64,000 nucleotides of DNA from Bacteroidetes bacterium 2013_40CM_41_45 (GCA_002215675.1 NGFH01000005.1:62001-126000); one strand, 5' to 3'; shown: positions 2,588 to 44,325, counted from the stretch's first letter. Program-made: numbers and translations. Notes: a model not told the origin generated them from the sequence alone.

Positions 2588-3786
2588 ACGCAAAAGAAAA
2601 GAAAAAAATATCCGACAATGTTGTGGTCATTAAAATGAATGAGCACAAAGTTCCACAGTTCAGGGAGGTGCGTGGAGAGGATTATATTTTCTTCGGAAAA
2701 AACAATGATTATCCTGAATATCTGCTAAAGCTATATGACCGCAGCGCAAAACACAATGCCATCATCAATCAAAAATCGTTTTACATTTTTGGTGGCGGCA
2801 GTCTCACGTGTGGTGATTTTAAAGTGAATGAAGATTGCGAAACACTGAATGATGTATTAAAAAAAGTCATACTCGATTACGAACTCTTCGGCGGATTCGC
2901 TGTGGAAGTAATATGGGCATTCGGAGGTAAGCTGGCAGAACTGAGGCACATCAATTATTCTCATGTCAGAAGCAATGAGGATAATTCAAAATTTTATTTC
3001 ACAAAGGAATGGGCACGTAAATATTATGATGAGAATGATAACGAAATGTCGCTGCCGATTTATAGTGCAAAGGAGAACAAGGATTTTGTAACCTGGGAAG
3101 CATTTAACCCGGAAAATAAATCGGGCAAACAATTATACTACTACAAATCCTATCGCCCCAACCTCGATACATATCCTCTACCCGACTATATCGGGGCGAT
3201 TCCTTTTATCGAGATTGATTTTGAAATTGCCAACTATTGGTATAACGCCGTGAAGAATGGATTCACCGCTTCGCATATCATTACATTTTATGGCGACCCG
3301 GGAACCCAGGAGGAACAGAAAAAATTAGAAGAAAGAATCACCAAAAAATTTACCGGAACCGATAGGGCTGGCAGAGTCATCCTCAACTTTTCGCAGAATA
3401 AAGAAAGAGGCGGCAGCGAAATCGCCAACATTGCTCCTCTGGATTTGGATAAGCAATTTCAAATTCTCAATGATACCGTGCAGCAGGAAATATTTTCAGG
3501 GCACCGCATCACATCACCCATGCTTTTCGGTATTAAAACTCCCGGGCAGCTTGGCGGGCGGACAGAATTGGTAGAAGCTCATGAGCTTTTTCAGAATGTG
3601 TTTGTAACTCCGAAGCAAAAAATTTTTGAAACCGTATTTACAAAGCTCTTATGTCATTTCGGAATAAACGAAAAGATGGAGTTGCAGAAACTAGCACCCA
3701 TAGGATTGGATGTAGTGAACAGCTCTAACGCCTGGAATATTTTGACTAGCCCTGAAAGACGAAAAGCAATAGGGCTTCAACCATAA
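2584..3786 (+). CDS. Phage portal protein
   Basis: This 400-residue protein has the layout of portal proteins, which form the dodecameric DNA gate at one capsid vertex. There is an N-terminal region about binding and ordering ('YIFFGKNNDYPEYLLKLYD'), a central stem region, and a C-terminal stretch 'ITSPMLFGIKTPGQLGGRTE' followed by a helix 'ELVEAHELFQNVFVTPKQ', which is the conserved clip/crown-proximal pattern of Bacteroidota phage portals. It overlaps the upstream gene by four bases. No terminase gene is seen next to it, although one usually lies immediately upstream of a portal. I am fairly sure of the family call from the C-terminal pattern. Confidence 0.75.
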   Translation: MNAKEKKKISDNVVVIKMNEHKVPQFREVRGEDYIFFGKNNDYPEYLLKLYDRSAKHNAIINQKSFYIFGGGSLTCGDFKVNEDCETLNDVLKKVILDYELFGGFAVEVIWAFGGKLAELRHINYSHVRSNEDNSKFYFTKEWARKYYDENDNEMSLPIYSAKENKDFVTWEAFNPENKSGKQLYYYKSYRPNLDTYPLPDYIGAIPFIEIDFEIANYWYNAVKNGFTASHIITFYGDPGTQEEQKKLEERITKKFTGTDRAGRVILNFSQNKERGGSEIANIAPLDLDKQFQILNDTVQQEIFSGHRITSPMLFGIKTPGQLGGRTELVEAHELFQNVFVTPKQKIFETVFTKLLCHFGINEKMELQKLAPIGLDVVNSSNAWNILTSPERRKAIGLQP

Positions 3787-4565: not shown

Positions 4566-5010
4566 TTTCATCAACATAACCGATGCGCTGAAAACCATAG
4601 CAGACAATCATAAGCAGATTCATTCTTTTGGTTTTGGCGATTTGGCACATATCAATACTTCCGGAAGCATTGACTATGCGTTGATGTGGGTTGAACCGAA
4701 CGGAAGCATTGCAAAGCGCGGCGAGGTAGGTTTCAGATTTAAAATCCTTATCATGGATTTAGCACGAAAAGACGAAAGCAATTTAATTGATGTATTAAAC
4801 GACACGCACCAGATTGCCCTCGACGTGCTTGCAGATATTTATATAAATGGGTTGGATGCTGTAAACGGAACTCATGGTTTTCATTTGAAAGACCCAGATG
4901 TGGTGCTGGATAATTATGCAGATCGGTTTGATGAAGAAGTTGCAGGATGGAGCATGAATATTACAGTTTGGGTCAGCTGGGACTGGAACGAATGCGCAAT
5001 ACCAAATTAA
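4555..5010 (+). CDS. Putative phage tail-completion / neck protein
   Basis: This 151-residue alpha/beta protein ends in 'RFDEEVAGWSMNITVWVSWD' followed by a short acidic and polar tail. That C-terminal pattern is common in small neck or tail-completion proteins of phages from Bacteroidota. Its place after portal and connector fits. It overlaps the preceding tiny gene by 11 bases. No signal or membrane segments are present. Confidence in it being a phage neck protein is moderate; the precise ring it forms cannot be told. Confidence 0.55.
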   Translation: MENNFINITDALKTIADNHKQIHSFGFGDLAHINTSGSIDYALMWVEPNGSIAKRGEVGFRFKILIMDLARKDESNLIDVLNDTHQIALDVLADIYINGLDAVNGTHGFHLKDPDVVLDNYADRFDEEVAGWSMNITVWVSWDWNECAIPN

Positions 5011-36286: not shown

Positions 36287-37256
36287 TTACCTGCTAATAA
36301 TTAATTTTTGTGAAAAGATTTTCTCTTTATTTTTTATGGAGAGAAAATAAATGCCATTGGGATAAGAGGATAAATTAATTGTTGAATTATTGATTTGCTG
36401 AATGGTTGATTGAAATACTTTTTCTCCTAACAAATTATAAATAGCAACATCATTTTTTCCATATAGCCCCCTTATTTTTATTTGGTTGCTTGCTGGATTT
36501 GGGTAAACAAAAATTTCATTCTCTTTTCCTCTTTCATTAACCCCAACTCCATCAAAACAGTTATTAGAATCGGTTGGCAATTCATATACAGAAATATCAT
36601 CTATATAAAAATAAGCATAACCTAACCAGAAATTTCCAACAGTAAGAGTATCCGTGTTAGCATCATTGTAAAAATTACCTATCGTCATAAATTTTTCCCC
36701 CCCCCGCAGTAAACACTCCAGAAATTTTTGTCCAATTAATTGCATCAGTGATAATATTGCCAAAAAGATTTTCTACTTGAGGAAGGTAATTTAAAACAAG
36801 TCCCGTATTGTAGTTGTAAATACTATCCGTAGAAAAGTAAGCGCCAATTCTACTGGTAGCCAACCTGCAAGAATCGGCATTTGACACATAAAATGTTACG
36901 CAATAGCTTCTGTCCTGTATTAGGGAGTCAATTAATTTCACTTCAATGTACTCTCTTACGTTTGGAGTCGCAAATGTAGCGAGGTCAGCATACCCGCTAC
37001 CGGTTCTCGCAAATTGGTATCCAAAATAATTTGATGGTACATCAACAGGCAGCGCGGATGGACCCACATAACAAGCGTGACAAAAATCCGGGGTATTCAG
37101 TGTGGGACTGAACCATGGAATAGCAAGAGAAAGTTGTGCTCCGTCTGTTGGGCAGGAAGTAAACAACTCAAAACTTGGGTTGGGGACTAAATTTTGTCCT
37201 TCCGATTTAAGAAAGAGCAGCAAACAGCTAAAGAGAATAACACTATTAAATTTCAT
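36287..37256 (-). pseudogene. T9SS surface protein gene, frame broken at a 9-bp poly-G tract (possible phase-OFF)
   Basis: Two overlapping reading frames together encode one protein of about 320 residues. The first part (from 37256) has a Sec signal (MKFNSVILFSCLLLFLKSEG) and the shared 'NLVPNPSFELFTSCPT' domain. The second part (down to 36287) continues at 'GGEKFMTIGNF' and ends in a type A sorting domain ('IFVYPNPASNQIKIRG'). The frames join at nine C on the plus strand (36697-36705). With eight, the protein would read on as GVFTAGGEKF, as in the paralog at 38111-39343, where the tract has eight. The broken state is +1 relative to it. It may be a phase-variable OFF state or a sequencing error at a homopolymer. 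Confidence 0.85.
36697..36705. repeat. Poly-C/G homopolymer of 9 inside a coding sequence
   Basis: Nine C on the plus strand (G on the coding strand) at the frame break of the gene at 36287-37256. Confidence 0.9.
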
Positions 37257-37261
37257 GACAT

Positions 37262-37292
37262 AAAAGGAGAGGTAAAGTTACCTCTCCTTTTT
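37262..37292 (-). terminator. Bidirectional hairpin terminator
   Basis: AAAAGGAGAGGTAA pairs with TTACCTCTCCTTTT, flanked by A and T runs. It sits between the orphan sorting-domain cassette and the broken gene, and would end leftward transcripts of the cassette. Confidence 0.85.
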
Positions 37293-37302
37293 GGAATCTT
37301 CG

Positions 37303-38163
37303 CTATTTTACAATGACCAATTTTTCAGTTGAAATTACTTCATTATCCTGCTTTATTCCAGCAAAATAAATTCCTTGTTCAAAAACTTTGGTAGAAATGG
37401 TAATTTTATCTATTACTGAATTCAGAATTCGTATAAATACTTCTCTTCCTGTTACATCGCAAAGCACAAACATTCCTGTTTCATTTTCACCCAACGAGTA
37501 TGCAATATTCAATTCATCGCTTGTAGGGTTTGGATAAATATGCATAAAGCTTTCCTTTATTTGTTTTTCTTTTGACAACCTTTCTCCTATATCGCCATAG
37601 TCATTAAAATCAAGCCCGAGCATTACTCTCGCAGTGTAAACAGCCGGTCCGCCAGAGACAGGATTTTGTTCAGCTATATCCAAAAGCATGCTATACTGAC
37701 TCTCTGTTAAGGTGTAAATATCCTTTGCCCATGTGGCAAGATAAATTTCGTTAGTTGTCCTTTCGTTAGCGGCTGCCAGATTTTCAGGTGTTATTGTAGA
37801 ATTGATATCTTCAGCTTCTTCATAATCTTCGGCATCCATATTATATTTAACCTGAGCCATCCTGCCAACATTGGTGTTAGCTTCGTCAGTATAAAAATCC
37901 TGCAAATAACCATCATACGAGGTGTTAAGGTTCATAAGAGAATTATTGTAGAGCAGCTCTTTGTAAATCTCCACCTGCGCTAAAAATTTTCCCTGTTCTG
38001 TAAGCGTGCAGTTCTCATCCCTTGTCCATTCCAGTAAGTTTGCAAGCTGTCTTTGTCTATCCAAAGGATTATCTCCTATGATTGCCGGATAAGAGCAATT
38101 GGGATTTGGATTATCTGCGTATCTCCACAAACCCGTGATAATTTTCCTTGTTAGGTACCACAA
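37303..38163 (-). pseudogene. Orphan C-terminal cassette of a beta-helix T9SS protein
   Basis: The frame is homologous to the last 260 or so residues of the 1156-residue protein at 40739-44209. Both have 'NEIYLATWAKDIYT', 'AEQNPVSGG', 'VMLGLDFND' and a type A sorting domain ('FMHIYPNPTSDELNIAYS'). There is no signal peptide, and the frame's ATG (38163) lies within the end of the upstream gene, so the first 15 or so residues come from an alternative frame of its CHU_C end. It looks like the tail of a lost gene that is now fused in tandem behind another. It may be silent, or serve as a recombination donor. Confidence 0.75.
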
Positions 38164-39343
38164 GAATATAGTAGTAAGTCCCGTCCGGTACCCCGCCTCC
38201 GTTCCATTGGTTATTGTAGTTGCTGCTTTGGTAAACTCTGCTGCCCCAACGGTTAAATATTTGCAGTGAAGAATTTGCAGGCAGGTTTTTTATGTAAAAC
38301 ACATCATTCTTTAAATCGTTATTTGGGGTAAAGATGTTATAGATTTCTATGGGCTGTTCCGGTGGTGGAGGCGGTGGGCAAGGTGGGTCAACAAAAACTG
38401 TTACAGTATCGGTGCTGGTCCAGTCACATAGTGTTCCCGTAATGGTATCTCGTACAGTTAAAATGTAAGTTATAGTTTGTGTTGGACTCGCAACCGGTTG
38501 TGCTATGGCTGTATCACTTAATCCCGTTGCTGGCTGCCATGTATAAATACATCCATTGCACGGCTGCATACCTATCTGCGTGCTGCTGTCTGCGCACACT
38601 ACTTTATCTCCTCCCGCATTGGCAGTATCTATTAGCATCTCTTCTACAAAGACATCATCTATGAAATAATATGATGTGAAAAAACCTGAAGAACCAATAG
38701 TATCTACCGTTGTAGAAATTAAATCTCTGAAATTACCAATTAACATAAACCGTTCCCCCCCCTGGGCAATAAAGGCGCCTTTAACTAAAACCCAATTACT
38801 GGTATCAATTATAACAAATTGGTTTTCTATTTGCGGATTTCTGATTAAAGGTTGGTAACTGGGAGAATAATAAAACACGCTGTCCACATCAAAATAAATT
38901 CCTTGTTTATTGCATGCATTTCGTCCGTTGCTACCTCTCGAAATATAGTAACCTCCGCAATATTTTTTTTTTGCTTTTAAAGAATCCGTTAGACCAACTT
39001 CAAGATATTCCCATCCGCCACCCGGATTATTGATAAAAGCAATACCGGCATAGGCATTAGCAGTTCTTGGAAATTGAAATCCCATCCAATTTGCCGGAAC
39101 ACCTGCAATATGTAAAGTTGAAGTATCACAGATATTATAATAATCAGAACTTCCTGAAGGTTGTTGCCACGTCATAAAAGGTACATTCGGCTGAAACCAA
39201 AAGTTTGCGTAAAAAATTTGACTGGTTGTTGTGGGGCAGGTATTGTAACTTTCAAAACTCGGATTTGAAACTAAGTTCTGAGAAAAAATTTTGCAAGGAA
39301 CCAAGACTGCAAAAATAAGGAGGATTAATCCCTGCATTTTCAT
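38111..39343 (-). CDS. 'NPSFE' domain surface protein with type B sorting domain, poly-G tract
   Basis: From the ATG at 39343 there are 410 residues. A Sec signal (MKMQGLILLIFAVLVPCKIF) is followed by the shared domain ('NLVSNPSFESYNTCPTTTSQ', about 22-240) with 'AQGGERFMLIGNF', then a Pro-rich linker 'CPPPPPPEQP'. A type B (gliding motility-associated) domain ends the protein (about 325-410, 'IYNIFTPNNDLKNDVFYIKN'). The GGERF codons lie in an 8-base G run (38755-38762 on the plus strand). The last 160 codons are highly similar in DNA to those of the paralog at 39415. The C-terminal end 'HGFVEIRR' runs into the orphan cassette. Confidence 0.85.
   Translation of the reverse strand: MKMQGLILLIFAVLVPCKIFSQNLVSNPSFESYNTCPTTTSQIFYANFWFQPNVPFMTWQQPSGSSDYYNICDTSTLHIAGVPANWMGFQFPRTANAYAGIAFINNPGGGWEYLEVGLTDSLKAKKKYCGGYYISRGSNGRNACNKQGIYFDVDSVFYYSPSYQPLIRNPQIENQFVIIDTSNWVLVKGAFIAQGGERFMLIGNFRDLISTTVDTIGSSGFFTSYYFIDDVFVEEMLIDTANAGGDKVVCADSSTQIGMQPCNGCIYTWQPATGLSDTAIAQPVASPTQTITYILTVRDTITGTLCDWTSTDTVTVFVDPPCPPPPPPEQPIEIYNIFTPNNDLKNDVFYIKNLPANSSLQIFNRWGSRVYQSSNYNNQWNGGGVPDGTYYYILVVPNKENYHGFVEIRR
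38755..38762. repeat. Poly-C/G homopolymer of 8 inside a coding sequence
   Basis: Eight C on the plus strand, in frame, at the position that matches the broken gene's tract (codes for QGGE). Confidence 0.9.
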
Positions 39344-39414
39344 AAAACAAATATAAAAAAAGAGCGATACCACTTTATCTGCGTATTTCTATCCCGCAAT
39401 ACTACGGCATTTCG

Positions 39415-40671
39415 CTATCTGCGAAGCTCAACAAAGCCATGATAACTTTCTTTACTCGGCAACACAAGTATGTAATAATACGTACCGTCCGGCGCACCAC
39501 CTCCATTCCATTGGTTGCTATAGTTGCTGCTTTGGTAAACCCTGCTGCCCCAACGGTTAAATATTTGCAACGAAGAATTAGCAGGCAGGTTTTTTATGTA
39601 AAACACATCGTTCTTTAAATCATTGTTTGGAGTAAAGATGTTATAGATTTCTATGGGCTGTTCTGGTGGTGGAGGCGGTGGGCAAGGTGGGTCAACAAAA
39701 ACTGTTACAGTATCGGTACTGGTCCAGTCACATATTGTACCTGTGCCTGTATCATGCACGGTTAAAATGTAGGTTGTGGTTTGTGTTGGAAAAGCAAGTG
39801 GTTGCGCAATAGTTGTATCACTTAATCCCGTTGCCGGCTGCCAAGTGTAAATGCAGCCGCTTCCTGCAGCAACACCTAATTGTATACTGTCTCCCTCGCA
39901 AATTATATTATCAGTTCCCGCATTGGCAGTATCTATCTGCATCTCTTCTACGAAAACATCATCTATAAAATAATATGCAGCATTAGCAAAACCATTAGGA
40001 CTGCAAAATGACGGACGAGGATACACTAGAGTGTCATGTGCTGTCTGGCTGTCATTACGAAAGTTACCAATGGTTATAAATCGTTCTCCGCCAATTGATT
40101 TGACGATACCGGAAATTAAAACCCAGTTCAATGTATCATAAATAATATTTCCCGCAGTACTTTCTATTTGCGGAATGACAGGTATAACAGTCCAAAATGG
40201 TGGCGTTGTTTGTCTTACACTATCTTTTGAAAAATGGATTCCTAATCTGTCAACCGCATGTATTACTGCATATAGACATTCAGGGTTATTTACATAAAAT
40301 CCTCCACAGTAATGTTTTCCCTTTCTTAATGAATCGAGTAGTTCTACTTCAATATACTCTCTATAATCTGAAACAATATAATATGCTATAAGCCCAGCAT
40401 ATGCGTTTCCTGTCCGGGCATATTGAAACCCGAAAGTATTAAAAGGAACAGATGCTGAAACATCCGGAGGGGGGGGGGCAGCGCAGGAATTAAAATAATC
40501 GCTTCCGCCTAAAAACGGCACAGGGTCAAACCATGGAACAGCATATTTCAATAACGCACTCCATGTAGGACATGAATCATGAACTTCAAAGCTGTAATTA
40601 GGTACTAAGTTCTGACTTTGAACTTTGATAGAAATTATTACAAAAATTATGAAGGTAAATATTACTTTCAT
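39415..40671 (-). CDS. 'NPSFE' domain surface protein with type B sorting domain, poly-C tract
   Basis: The 418 residues have a Sec signal (MKVIFTFIIFVIISIKVQSQ), the shared domain ('NLVPNYSFEVHDSCPTWSAL', about 22-250), the linker 'CPPPPPPEQP' and a type B sorting domain (about 335-418). At the tract position of its paralogs it reads 'KSIGGERFITIGNF' with an interrupted run (GGCGGAGAA), so that site is stable. A different run of ten G on the plus strand (40469-40478) codes for Pro residues in 'CAAPPPPDVSAS' near residue 60; it is in frame here. The gene ends in 'HGFVELRR' and is followed leftward by the paralog. Confidence 0.88.
   Translation of the reverse strand: MKVIFTFIIFVIISIKVQSQNLVPNYSFEVHDSCPTWSALLKYAVPWFDPVPFLGGSDYFNSCAAPPPPDVSASVPFNTFGFQYARTGNAYAGLIAYYIVSDYREYIEVELLDSLRKGKHYCGGFYVNNPECLYAVIHAVDRLGIHFSKDSVRQTTPPFWTVIPVIPQIESTAGNIIYDTLNWVLISGIVKSIGGERFITIGNFRNDSQTAHDTLVYPRPSFCSPNGFANAAYYFIDDVFVEEMQIDTANAGTDNIICEGDSIQLGVAAGSGCIYTWQPATGLSDTTIAQPLAFPTQTTTYILTVHDTGTGTICDWTSTDTVTVFVDPPCPPPPPPEQPIEIYNIFTPNNDLKNDVFYIKNLPANSSLQIFNRWGSRVYQSSNYSNQWNGGGAPDGTYYYILVLPSKESYHGFVELRR
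40469..40478. repeat. Poly-G/C homopolymer of 10 inside a coding sequence
   Basis: Ten G on the plus strand, in frame in the coding sequence of 39415-40671, near the start of the mature protein. Confidence 0.9.
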
Positions 40672-40738: not shown

Positions 40739-43700
40739 TTACTTTATTATAACCAGTTTTTCCTGTCCAATTAAGGCATCATCTGCAGACAGACGTAAAT
40801 AATAAATACCATTTGCAATTCCTGTAGTCGAAATACTGATAATATCAGTACCACCTGCAAGCTCCTGCGTCAGCAGTTCCCTGCCTGTTATATCGGTAAT
40901 CACCAGCAATCCTTTTTCATCGCTGCCCAATGAATAGTAAACAGTGACTTCAGAAGCAGCAGGGTTAGGATAAACATGGAGATAGTGGTCAACGGTATTC
41001 TCTGCAGAGGCAATGCGGTTTCCGCTCGGTCCTATGTCATTAAAATCCAAACCGAGCATCACGCGAGCCGTATATACAGCAGAGCCACCGCTTACCGGAT
41101 TTTGCTCCGCTATACTGAGCAGCGCATCGTACTGCGCTTGCGTAAATGTATAAATGTCCTTCGCCCAGGTGGCAAGATAAATTTCATTGGCTATTCGCTC
41201 ATTCGCTGCCGACTGATTTTCAGGTGTAACATTCGAATTTTCGTTTTCAGCTCCCTGATAATCTTCTTCACCAATCAGGAAACGCACGTTTGCCAACTGT
41301 CCTATGGCAGTGCCGGTGGCATCATCGTAAAAATCCTGAAGGTAGGCATCATCGGGGGTGCTAAGGTTCATAAGGTTGGAATTATACATGAGCTCTTTAT
41401 ACACATCGAGCTGCGACTCGAAAATCCGTTCAGGGCTAAGGGTGCAGGCAGGGTCTTCCGTCGCCCTGATGATGTCTGCCAGCGCTTTCTGAAATGCAAT
41501 GTTACTCATAGACTGAGGAATTGTATAGGTACAGCTCGTATTAGTGTTGGGAAAAGTTGATGTTAGAAGAATGAAACCCCCAGGAGAAATAAGCGGAGGG
41601 TTCCATGGATAACTTGGAGGTCCGGGTGGTGCTTGTTCATACCATATATTTCCTGTAACCAGGTTAGGCCCAAAACCATAAACATCCTGGAAAGGTGAAT
41701 ATCCGCTTGTGGGCCCTATGTTCCACCTGTTGTCCTGTGGCAAGGAGGAAGTTCCCTGTACGCCCGGGTCAGAGTTATCAAACCAAAAACCAACACGGTT
41801 ATATCCCAGCACATTGCACTGGAAAGTGTTGTTACCGGGAATATTAAATCCTCTTATACCAGAGCCAAGGTATCCCAAGTAATTATTAATGACATTGGTA
41901 AAGTTGCTGCTCTCAACAGAAATACCGGAGAGATACGAAAAGGTTGACGTAGAGTTAATATACGTGCTGTTAGGAGCTGTTCCGGGAAAGCAGCCATTGT
42001 TAAATTGATTCATAGAAACCAGGTTGCTGCAGCGGTACACCCAATTATCCAGCACATGACTCTTGTTATTATTCTGCACTCTTATTCCGTAGCTGGGCCA
42101 CGTGTCAGGATGATTTTGCGGATAATAAATATCATTTATGCCTACAATATTTGCCTGGTAAAGATTGGTTGCCTGTATTCCGGTAGGTGTATACTTAATT
42201 GTATTTGCACTAACAGTGGTTGCAGGGCAAATGGAAGGGTTAAGTAATGCCTCCTGCACAGTTATGGCTGTTGCTCCCTGCGTTATAATGGTGTTGGCGG
42301 GGTTAAAGTCGTTATCGGTAATGCTGATAGTGGAGCTGGCGTTGTTCAACATCCTTACGCCGCGCTGGCATTTATCGAGCGTGTTATGATGAATGGTCAT
42401 CAGCGCTGCAGCAGAACCAAAGACATCTGTACCTACGAGCACGTTGTTAAAAGTATTATAGGCGACATTCACGTTGTGCTTACCTTGCACAGAAATTCCA
42501 AAGTCGGAATTAGTGAATGTGTTTGAATAGCCCGGTCCAAGGCCTATCCCGATTCCTGCAGCAGACGCTATCTTATACGGGGCTTGTGCAAAAATGCAAA
42601 TCCCTTCGGGCGGGCAGACAGGCCCTCCGGGAAAACTAGGCGGGCAGGGATTTATCCTGTGGATGTTGTCAAAAGAATTGTTATAGGCAAGCAGCAAACT
42701 TTGTTTGCTCCAGATACCTACATCCATATCAGAGAACTGGTTCAGGTCAGGGGGATTAGTGCTGCCGATTTGAATCTGTTCAACCTTATTTATTTCAATG
42801 CCAATATTAGTGCGCTGCAGTGCCGGGTTTACAAATATTGTGTTAGGCGTATAGTAGGGGCGCATGGGAAATGAAAGAATATCAGTAGTAAGTATAGAAC
42901 GTTCAATGGTTCCCGGATGCGGCCCTTGCCCGGTAAATGTATTTACTATAATATCTTTATTATTATTTTGAAATTGTCCCCATCGAATAGTAAACGGGGC
43001 GCCATAATCAGATACTATTACATTTCTCGCATCCATGAAAGTAGTGTAATTATCTGTTCCTGTAATCGGAGGAGGATTTACAATAAGAGTACCCAAATTA
43101 TTCTGGTCAAAATAAATTCCGTCCCACATAAAGTCGCATCCTGCCTCAACTACGGTTGCCAGGCCAGTACCCGAAGTAGGAAAAAGATAAGGAGGGTTAT
43201 ATGCAGCATGATATATTTGAGGGCTCGAAAAAGTAAGCGTGTATAACGGCTTAATTAATATTTTAGCCTCAGGGCCCATCTTAATATTTGGGCAATCTTC
43301 AAAAGTAAAAGACTGGTCAATAGTAAACGTACCGTTAATGTAAATATCGGCAGACGTAGCCAATGTGGTAACTCCATTGGGATATGTTAAGTAAGGCGAT
43401 ACTGTCGGTTCGTTAGGTAATTGAGATACCGAAGTATTATTGATGAGTGCCCTACTTGCAGCATGCAGGGACGTACAGCATTGGTAAATCGGAATACAAA
43501 CTTCCTGTGGTCCGCAGCATGTAATAATATCAGCACATAATTCAGCAGCTGCACCATTATTATCAAATGTCGCACCGTTATAATCCACAGCTGCGTCATT
43601 TCCCGATTGGGATATCGAATAACCTGACATACCATTTATTATCCAGTTCGATATGCTGAGCGTTCCGGTATACCCCGTTGGAGGAACAAGTGTATACTGA

Positions 43701-44209
43701 GTTATTCCGTCAGCATCCAGGCAATTATTGTTAGGTCCGGTTATCGTAAATGGTATTTCATCAGCAACGTCAATAATCAGAGTAACGCAACCTGCGCAAC
43801 TCGTGGGACATGAAGGAGAAGGAGTAACAGGTTGAATGCAAAAAATATATTGATACGTTCCCGGCACACTGAAAATGCAACTCCATTGACTAATGGAGCT
43901 CATCAATACAGGAGAAGAGGTTCCGGGAAATGAAGATGCACAGGGTGGAAATCCACCTGTTACATTGGTAGTTACCCACCAGTCAGGGCAAGTTGAAGTA
44001 TTCTGTATATCAAAAAATAATTCAGTGCCTGTACATACGTGTACGTGATGAGTGGCATTCGCACTTGTAAAAGTTATAAAACAGTTGCCATCGGTGCAAT
44101 TTCCGGTTACGAATAGACCCGGACATGGTGGTTGTGCTTTTACATTAAAATTAAATGTGCTCATTGCTGCTATAAGCAGCGCAATAAAAATTTTCATTTC
44201 GTTTTTCAT
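40739..44209 (-). CDS. Large beta-helix surface protein, T9SS type A cargo
   Basis: From the ATG at 44209 there are 1156 residues. Upstream codons to 44278 precede the Sec signal (MKNEMKIFIALLIAAMSTF) and are not counted. Residues about 25-240 hold an Ig-like/'SprB-like' Cys-rich region ('CPGLFVTGNCTDGNCFITF', 'VTLIIDVADEIPFTITGPNN'), and 260-870 a long parallel beta-helix region with repeated 'NNxFxN' turns. Residues about 905-1080 are a helical region ('LYIKLATWAKDIYT'-like) shared with the orphan cassette at 37303, and a type A sorting domain ends it ('LHVYPNPAASEVTVYYSLG'). It is likely a surface adhesin or glycan-binding protein. Confidence 0.85.
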   Translation of the reverse strand: MKNEMKIFIALLIAAMSTFNFNVKAQPPCPGLFVTGNCTDGNCFITFTSANATHHVHVCTGTELFFDIQNTSTCPDWWVTTNVTGGFPPCASSFPGTSSPVLMSSISQWSCIFSVPGTYQYIFCIQPVTPSPSCPTSCAGCVTLIIDVADEIPFTITGPNNNCLDADGITQYTLVPPTGYTGTLSISNWIINGMSGYSISQSGNDAAVDYNGATFDNNGAAAELCADIITCCGPQEVCIPIYQCCTSLHAASRALINNTSVSQLPNEPTVSPYLTYPNGVTTLATSADIYINGTFTIDQSFTFEDCPNIKMGPEAKILIKPLYTLTFSSPQIYHAAYNPPYLFPTSGTGLATVVEAGCDFMWDGIYFDQNNLGTLIVNPPPITGTDNYTTFMDARNVIVSDYGAPFTIRWGQFQNNNKDIIVNTFTGQGPHPGTIERSILTTDILSFPMRPYYTPNTIFVNPALQRTNIGIEINKVEQIQIGSTNPPDLNQFSDMDVGIWSKQSLLLAYNNSFDNIHRINPCPPSFPGGPVCPPEGICIFAQAPYKIASAAGIGIGLGPGYSNTFTNSDFGISVQGKHNVNVAYNTFNNVLVGTDVFGSAAALMTIHHNTLDKCQRGVRMLNNASSTISITDNDFNPANTIITQGATAITVQEALLNPSICPATTVSANTIKYTPTGIQATNLYQANIVGINDIYYPQNHPDTWPSYGIRVQNNNKSHVLDNWVYRCSNLVSMNQFNNGCFPGTAPNSTYINSTSTFSYLSGISVESSNFTNVINNYLGYLGSGIRGFNIPGNNTFQCNVLGYNRVGFWFDNSDPGVQGTSSLPQDNRWNIGPTSGYSPFQDVYGFGPNLVTGNIWYEQAPPGPPSYPWNPPLISPGGFILLTSTFPNTNTSCTYTIPQSMSNIAFQKALADIIRATEDPACTLSPERIFESQLDVYKELMYNSNLMNLSTPDDAYLQDFYDDATGTAIGQLANVRFLIGEEDYQGAENENSNVTPENQSAANERIANEIYLATWAKDIYTFTQAQYDALLSIAEQNPVSGGSAVYTARVMLGLDFNDIGPSGNRIASAENTVDHYLHVYPNPAASEVTVYYSLGSDEKGLLVITDITGRELLTQELAGGTDIISISTTGIANGIYYLRLSADDALIGQEKLVIIK

Positions 44210-44325
44210 GATAATCGATTTTAATGAGTTAAATATTATGGAGAGAGAAAAAGAATCATTGAAAATTTCAATGTTCAATATTCCACATAGTTTTTATTTC
44301 TGTCAATCCCCTTTGGGGGACATTT

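Follow-up and report, generated by a model that had tools for sequence, protein, structure and literature searches.

The window, a stretch of 64,000 nucleotides from Bacteroidetes bacterium 2013_40CM_41_45 (NGFH01000005.1:62001-126000), contains an array of three genes within 36287-40671, each of which combines an NPSFE domain with a C-terminal sorting domain of the type IX secretion system (T9SS) (Table 1). The genome has a size of 3.38 Mb and is the single representative of its genus. Genes 2 and 3 share one layout, in which a signal-peptide-like start is followed by an NPSFE domain of ~230 residues, a linker and a type B signal, and gene 1 carries a type A signal instead. Searches with TIGR04183/TIGR04131 and PF18962/PF13585 gave matches above cut-off for the 3' part of gene 1 (Pfam PF18962, E 6e-16; NCBIfam TIGR04183, E 2.9e-14), for gene 2 (CHU_C, E 1.6e-21; TIGR04131, E 8e-12) and for gene 3 (CHU_C, E 4.5e-22; TIGR04131, E 9e-12), and SprA, the component of the secretion machinery that we searched for, is encoded in the genome (SprA_N PF14349, E 1.8e-170). 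Gene 1 is 40-44% identical to the other two, which are themselves 48% identical in the NPSFE domain and 93% identical in the C-terminal part, the pattern expected if the head diversifies while the export tail is shared.

Table 1 Features of the NPSFE array and its neighbours, and tracts at homologous sites. ON or IN, tract in frame with the full product; OFF or OUT, tract out of frame. Tracts are given on the coding strand.
Feature	Position	Strand	Description
Gene 1, 3' part	36287..36763	-	Other frame, no stops; remainder of NPSFE domain and T9SS type A sorting domain
Gene 1, 5' part	36675..37256	-	193-aa ORF; signal-peptide-like N-terminus and NPSFE domain until the tract; ends ...GGGKIYDDR, stop
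Gene 1, G9 tract	36697..36705	-	GGE site, out of frame
Orphan 3' fragment	37303..38163	-	Paralog of beta-helix gene end; T9SS type A sorting domain; no obvious start of its own
Gene 2	38111..39343	-	410 aa, intact; NPSFE domain, linker, T9SS type B sorting domain
Gene 2, G8 tract	38755..38762	-	GGE site, in frame: CAG GGG GGG GAA CGG
Gene 2, A10 tract	38963..38972	-	In frame; longest A/T run of the window
Gene 3	39415..40671	-	418 aa, intact; NPSFE domain, linker, T9SS type B sorting domain
Gene 3, C10 tract	40469..40478	-	In frame, AAPPPP, in a variable stretch
Beta-helix-like surface gene	40739..~44209-44278	-	T9SS type A sorting domain (PF18962, above cut-off); PF13229 below cut-off
GGE site, IN			Gene 2 G8; G015/L115 G13; L164 G11; G075/L244 G10
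GGE site, OUT			Gene 1 G9 (needs -1); G119/L250 G10 (needs +1); G261/L242 G10 (needs -1)
CP..PW site			L152 C11 IN; L158 C11 IN; L134 G10 OUT
PD.GGG.YFN.C site			L192 twice, G11 IN
VPAN.GGG.QYARTG site			L146 G10, L150 G12, L166 G12; all IN

The array shows signs of rearrangement. The orphan fragment between genes 1 and 2 is 50% identical over 269 aa to the neighbouring beta-helix gene (40739-44278) and retains a sorting domain (PF18962, E 6.5e-11), pointing to an earlier duplication or recombination event here; its reading frame differs from that of gene 2, whose end it overlaps by 53 bases. A fourth full NPSFE paralog lies elsewhere in the genome (G000:C9), where it adjoins another copy of the beta-helix-like gene and so repeats the pairing found in the window; this paralog, like most family members, has no tract. 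The orphan, the A10 tract of gene 2 and this fourth paralog were not part of the preliminary description of this DNA.

That description had placed G/C runs of nine, eight and ten bases in the three NPSFE-domain genes, and checking the letters of the plus strand one by one verified their positions, the runs reading there as C9, C8 and G10. It had also assigned the first two runs to a common GGE(K/R)F site and proposed that the frame of gene 1 is broken, both of which hold: gene 2 reads IAQGGERF, and gene 1, with one base fewer, would give AGGEKF, the reading of its paralogs. As it stands, the ATG frame of gene 1 ends in ...GVFTAGGGKIYDDR and a stop (coding strand GCG GGG GGG GGA AAA ATT, A G G G K I, with the stop after YDDR), and the adjacent frame runs on as GGEKFMTIGNF...YIDDISVYEL, open to the gene end and with the conserved IGNF and YIDD motifs. 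In gene 3, again as claimed, the GGE site itself holds an interrupted run, GGCGGAGAA (codons GGC GGA GAA), and the C10 tract lies elsewhere, ~130 codons before it. G8 and G9 are short tracts. The A10 of gene 2 is a possible second slippage site.

Runs of this length are rare in the genome, which has five G/C runs of at least 8 bases, three of them in this 4.4-kb stretch (P ~2e-8). The remaining two, a G9 (G000:C2:77169) and a C8 (G000:C7:203575) in genes that we take, from reading their sequences, to be NIF3-like and SecG, are in frame and code for GGG motifs. Outside the array, the window contains one G/C run of at least 6 against 12.9 expected under a dinucleotide model, so that the genome appears to avoid G/C runs; in sampled window ORFs, GGG accounts for 11% of the Gly codons, and one of 103 GG pairs is written GGG GGG.

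Gene 1 carries a single lesion and no second one, and a fixed frameshift or a consensus error could equally produce it. If the nine-base call were a sequencing or assembly error, gene 1 would really be G8 and intact, with no switching, and homopolymer indels are indeed the commonest assembly errors. We consider this unlikely, because the other homopolymers of 8-10 bases within window ORFs are all in frame, as are those in the NIF3-like and SecG genes, and because independent out-of-frame lengths occur at the GGE site in two other genomes (G119 and G261). Moreover, the clustering of long G/C runs in the NPSFE family would remain whichever exact length is called, and an error in gene 1 would still leave three potentially switchable ON genes. 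The orphan fragment could also be read as the mark of a decaying duplicate array, in which gene 1 is a pseudogene and tracts arise neutrally, as a consequence of Gly/Pro-rich sequence; however, the lack of a second lesion in gene 1, the avoidance of G/C runs and rarity of GGG codons elsewhere, and the recurrence of tracts in intact homologs of other families with no A/T counterpart make such decay improbable.

The NPSFE domain is widespread, with matches in 300 of 395 class genomes. A confident AlphaFold2 model of the gene 3 domain (pLDDT 89.8) has a jelly-roll fold and an N-terminal helix (residues 2-14), and it aligns with Z 10-12.6 over 130-180 residues to CBM61, CBM4, CBM16, CBM22, HpiC1-type proteins and gingipain adhesin domains. 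The jelly roll is of the kind found in CBM4/9, CBM16, CBM22 and CBM61 (Z 10-12), the NPSFE domain differing from these in its ~230 residues and longer loops, and the same fold is common to the cleaved adhesin domains K1-K3 of gingipains (Z ~10.5). At the sequence level, Pfam CBM_4_9 (PF02018) gave weak matches in 9 of 51 family members (best E 0.0022), none reaching the gathering cut-off and none in the window proteins, and the NPSFE profile found nothing significant among the sequences of solved structures. In the model, the invariant GGE (residues 194-196) lies in a turn between strands 184-191 and 198-203, and truncation there would remove the last strands along with the T9SS signal, such that neither folding nor export is expected of the predicted OFF product. 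Sorting signals lie 3' of every tract in the window, so that the lack of export should apply to the OFF products of all of them.

Next, we compared 79 loci that were fetched solely via homology to the NPSFE domain, regardless of tracts. G/C runs of at least 9 bases number ten across the 78 kb of domain DNA, whereas the 389 kb of flank contain none (binomial p 1.7e-8, for loci that come from many different MAGs yet are phylogenetically non-independent); for runs of at least 8 the counts are 11 in the domain and 4 in the flank. A/T runs were not enriched in the same domain-to-flank comparison (1.1-fold). At the GGE site of the fetched loci, run lengths are bimodal: 89 of 91 in-frame sites have at most 6 G, and the remaining two have at least 10. 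Altogether, tracts recur at about four homologous sites, and, counting gene 3, they are present in 16 genes, 12 of them in frame and 4 out of frame, the latter all open in the other frame; the GGE site accounts for seven of these genes, which are spread over six genomes and comprise four in-frame and three out-of-frame cases (Table 1). The C10 of gene 3 is positioned between the PD.GGG.YFN.C and VPAN.GGG.QYARTG sites. The comparison genomes are mostly MAGs, some of low coverage, with ~3.5x given for the contig that carries the G13 tract. One Chitinophagaceae MAG locus (L192) holds two tandem NPSFE genes with G11 at the same site in each (3144-3154 and 4623-4633), a parallel to the array in the window.

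Broader searches gave further information on distribution. A pattern for the GGE site matched 21 genomes, and most of these hits were discarded as chance matches outside the NPSFE family. The FQYARTG pattern of the VPAN.GGG.QYARTG site had no match in the 395 class genomes, indicating that tracts at that site are confined to Chitinophagaceae/Chitinophagales MAGs. Close orthologs of the G119 tract gene, sought within its genus, yielded distant ones only, and matches in a plasmid search were mostly C-terminal.

The spread of frames at the GGE site bears on whether the tract might be a recoding site, at which ribosomal frameshifting or transcriptional slippage would make both products from a fixed DNA length. 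A G-run followed by an A-run does resemble a slippery heptamer (G GGA AAA), and RNA polymerase can slip on long runs. However, a -1 ribosomal slip at G GGA AAA would put gene 1, where one base has to be lost, into the wrong frame, and the required change differs among homologs: G261, like gene 1, would have to lose a base, G119 would have to gain one, and four others need no change. This argues against fixed recoding, since programmed recoding sites are normally conserved in direction, and the homologs lack a conserved slippery site with one fixed productive shift; we regard recoding as very unlikely.

Scanning relatives from the same order for G-runs revealed a second set of genes with such tracts, namely SprB-repeat (PF13573) adhesins with G/C runs of 9-22 bases inside the signal-peptide region. 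In one genome (G006, 6 contigs), three SprB-repeat genes have G10 with the ATG in frame (L084, L088 and L090; ON) and one has G9 (L089; OFF). Over 381 bases across the tract region, the identity between L089 and L090 is 96.6%, and the tract differs by one G, which makes this paralog pair the nearest substitute here for a length difference within a population. Three more SprB-repeat genes with tracts of 9-10 bases, in G006 (L091), G004 (L098) and G012 (L117), are out of frame from the visible ATG. A further SprB-repeat gene, in G009, starts with an unusually long run of 22 G (L093:2489-2510) and has no clear in-frame ATG. Two O-mannosyltransferase/TPR-like genes of G011 carry G17 (L104:2519-4537) and G11 (L109:2462-4351) just past the start, out of the frame of the visible ATG, possibly representing phase-variable surface glycosylation, and a T9SS type A gene (L106) has G14 in frame. 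Poly-G runs at the contig ends of L094 and L095 were excluded as probable two-colour Illumina artefacts. The tracts in SprB-repeat and O-mannosyltransferase/TPR-like genes and in L106 suggest that the group as a whole tends to use poly-G contingency loci, and that the array is no isolated oddity.

Taken together, the array has several of the marks of contingency loci: the tracts of 9, 8 and 10 bases compare with the G/C homopolymers of 7-8 or more in coding regions by which such loci are recognised; a change in length toggles between full and truncated product, as seen in gene 1 and in homologs found in both states; and tracts are over-represented against the genome count, the 79 loci and the window expectation. 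We put the probability at roughly three in four that this is an array of phase-variable contingency genes for secreted T9SS surface proteins, switched by slippage at G/C tracts. Each protein would consist of an N-terminal jelly roll of the carbohydrate-binding type and a C-terminal type IX secretion signal, and slipped-strand mispairing at replication would add or remove single bases in the homopolymer within the jelly roll. An in-frame tract length would then give a full, exported protein (ON), and at other lengths the chain would be cut inside the domain, without the T9SS signal, leaving nothing at the surface (OFF). The consensus would thus record gene 1 as OFF (G9) and genes 2 and 3 as ON (G8 and C10), with up to eight surface combinations available from three switchable genes. 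Tract lengths would be expected to vary within the population, and the products are probably located at the surface, where they may bind glycans or act as adhesins.

The preliminary description had proposed from the window that these paralogous T9SS surface genes undergo slipped-strand phase variation, and independent sequence comparisons with homologs lend it support, since G/C tracts are near-exclusive to the domain family, the same codons are hit in other lineages at in-frame as well as out-of-frame lengths, A/T runs are not enriched and relatives have another family of adhesins with poly-G tracts. Consensus error, pseudogene decay and recoding are each less likely than replication slippage.

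Slippage-based phase variation is classical. Poly-G/C loci of Campylobacter jejuni, Neisseria and Helicobacter likewise have in-frame tracts of 8-13 bases in surface-related genes, with several loci per genome; one-base changes switch those loci ON and OFF, and the array here is known from its sequence. Unlike them, it belongs to Bacteroidota, encodes T9SS-exported products and is part of a domain family in which a few sites repeatedly gain tracts. In C. jejuni, G8-G10 tracts change at ~4e-4 to 2e-3 per division (PMC8224891). Invertase switching in Bacteroides, which affects capsule and SusC/SusD-type proteins, is also a stochastic surface variation in Bacteroidota, but its mechanism is DNA inversion by a recombinase, as opposed to the slippage proposed here. 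Gingipain adhesins and SprB bear C-terminal T9SS sorting signals as the array genes do, and neither gingipain adhesin domains nor SprB are known to us to carry in-frame poly-G tracts.

For Bacteroides, the pertinent passages of a 2025 review mention invertase-type switching alone (PMC11868660), and we found no report of slippage or poly-G phase variation of T9SS cargo in the open-licence literature. Going by this literature, slippage switching would be new in its application to T9SS cargo, the mechanism itself being already known. The relevant sections of a frameshift survey do not describe the gene families discussed here (PMC3711429).

The evidence leans somewhat towards a widespread, unrecognised poly-G system in environmental Bacteroidota, with tracts arising repeatedly at a few fixed sites of the adhesin-like NPSFE domain and separately in SprB-repeat signal peptides and O-mannosyltransferase-like genes, and generating combinatorial surface diversity. 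If so, apparent frameshifts in deposited surface genes would be explained, and existing raw metagenome reads would permit a direct test. In Bacteroidota, what is known of phase variation mainly concerns gut species and their DNA inversions. Were T9SS cargo and SprB-type adhesins switched by slippage, contingency loci would also be a feature of a large group of other members of the phylum, and the resulting combinatorial surface diversity would perhaps serve phage defence or surface attachment.
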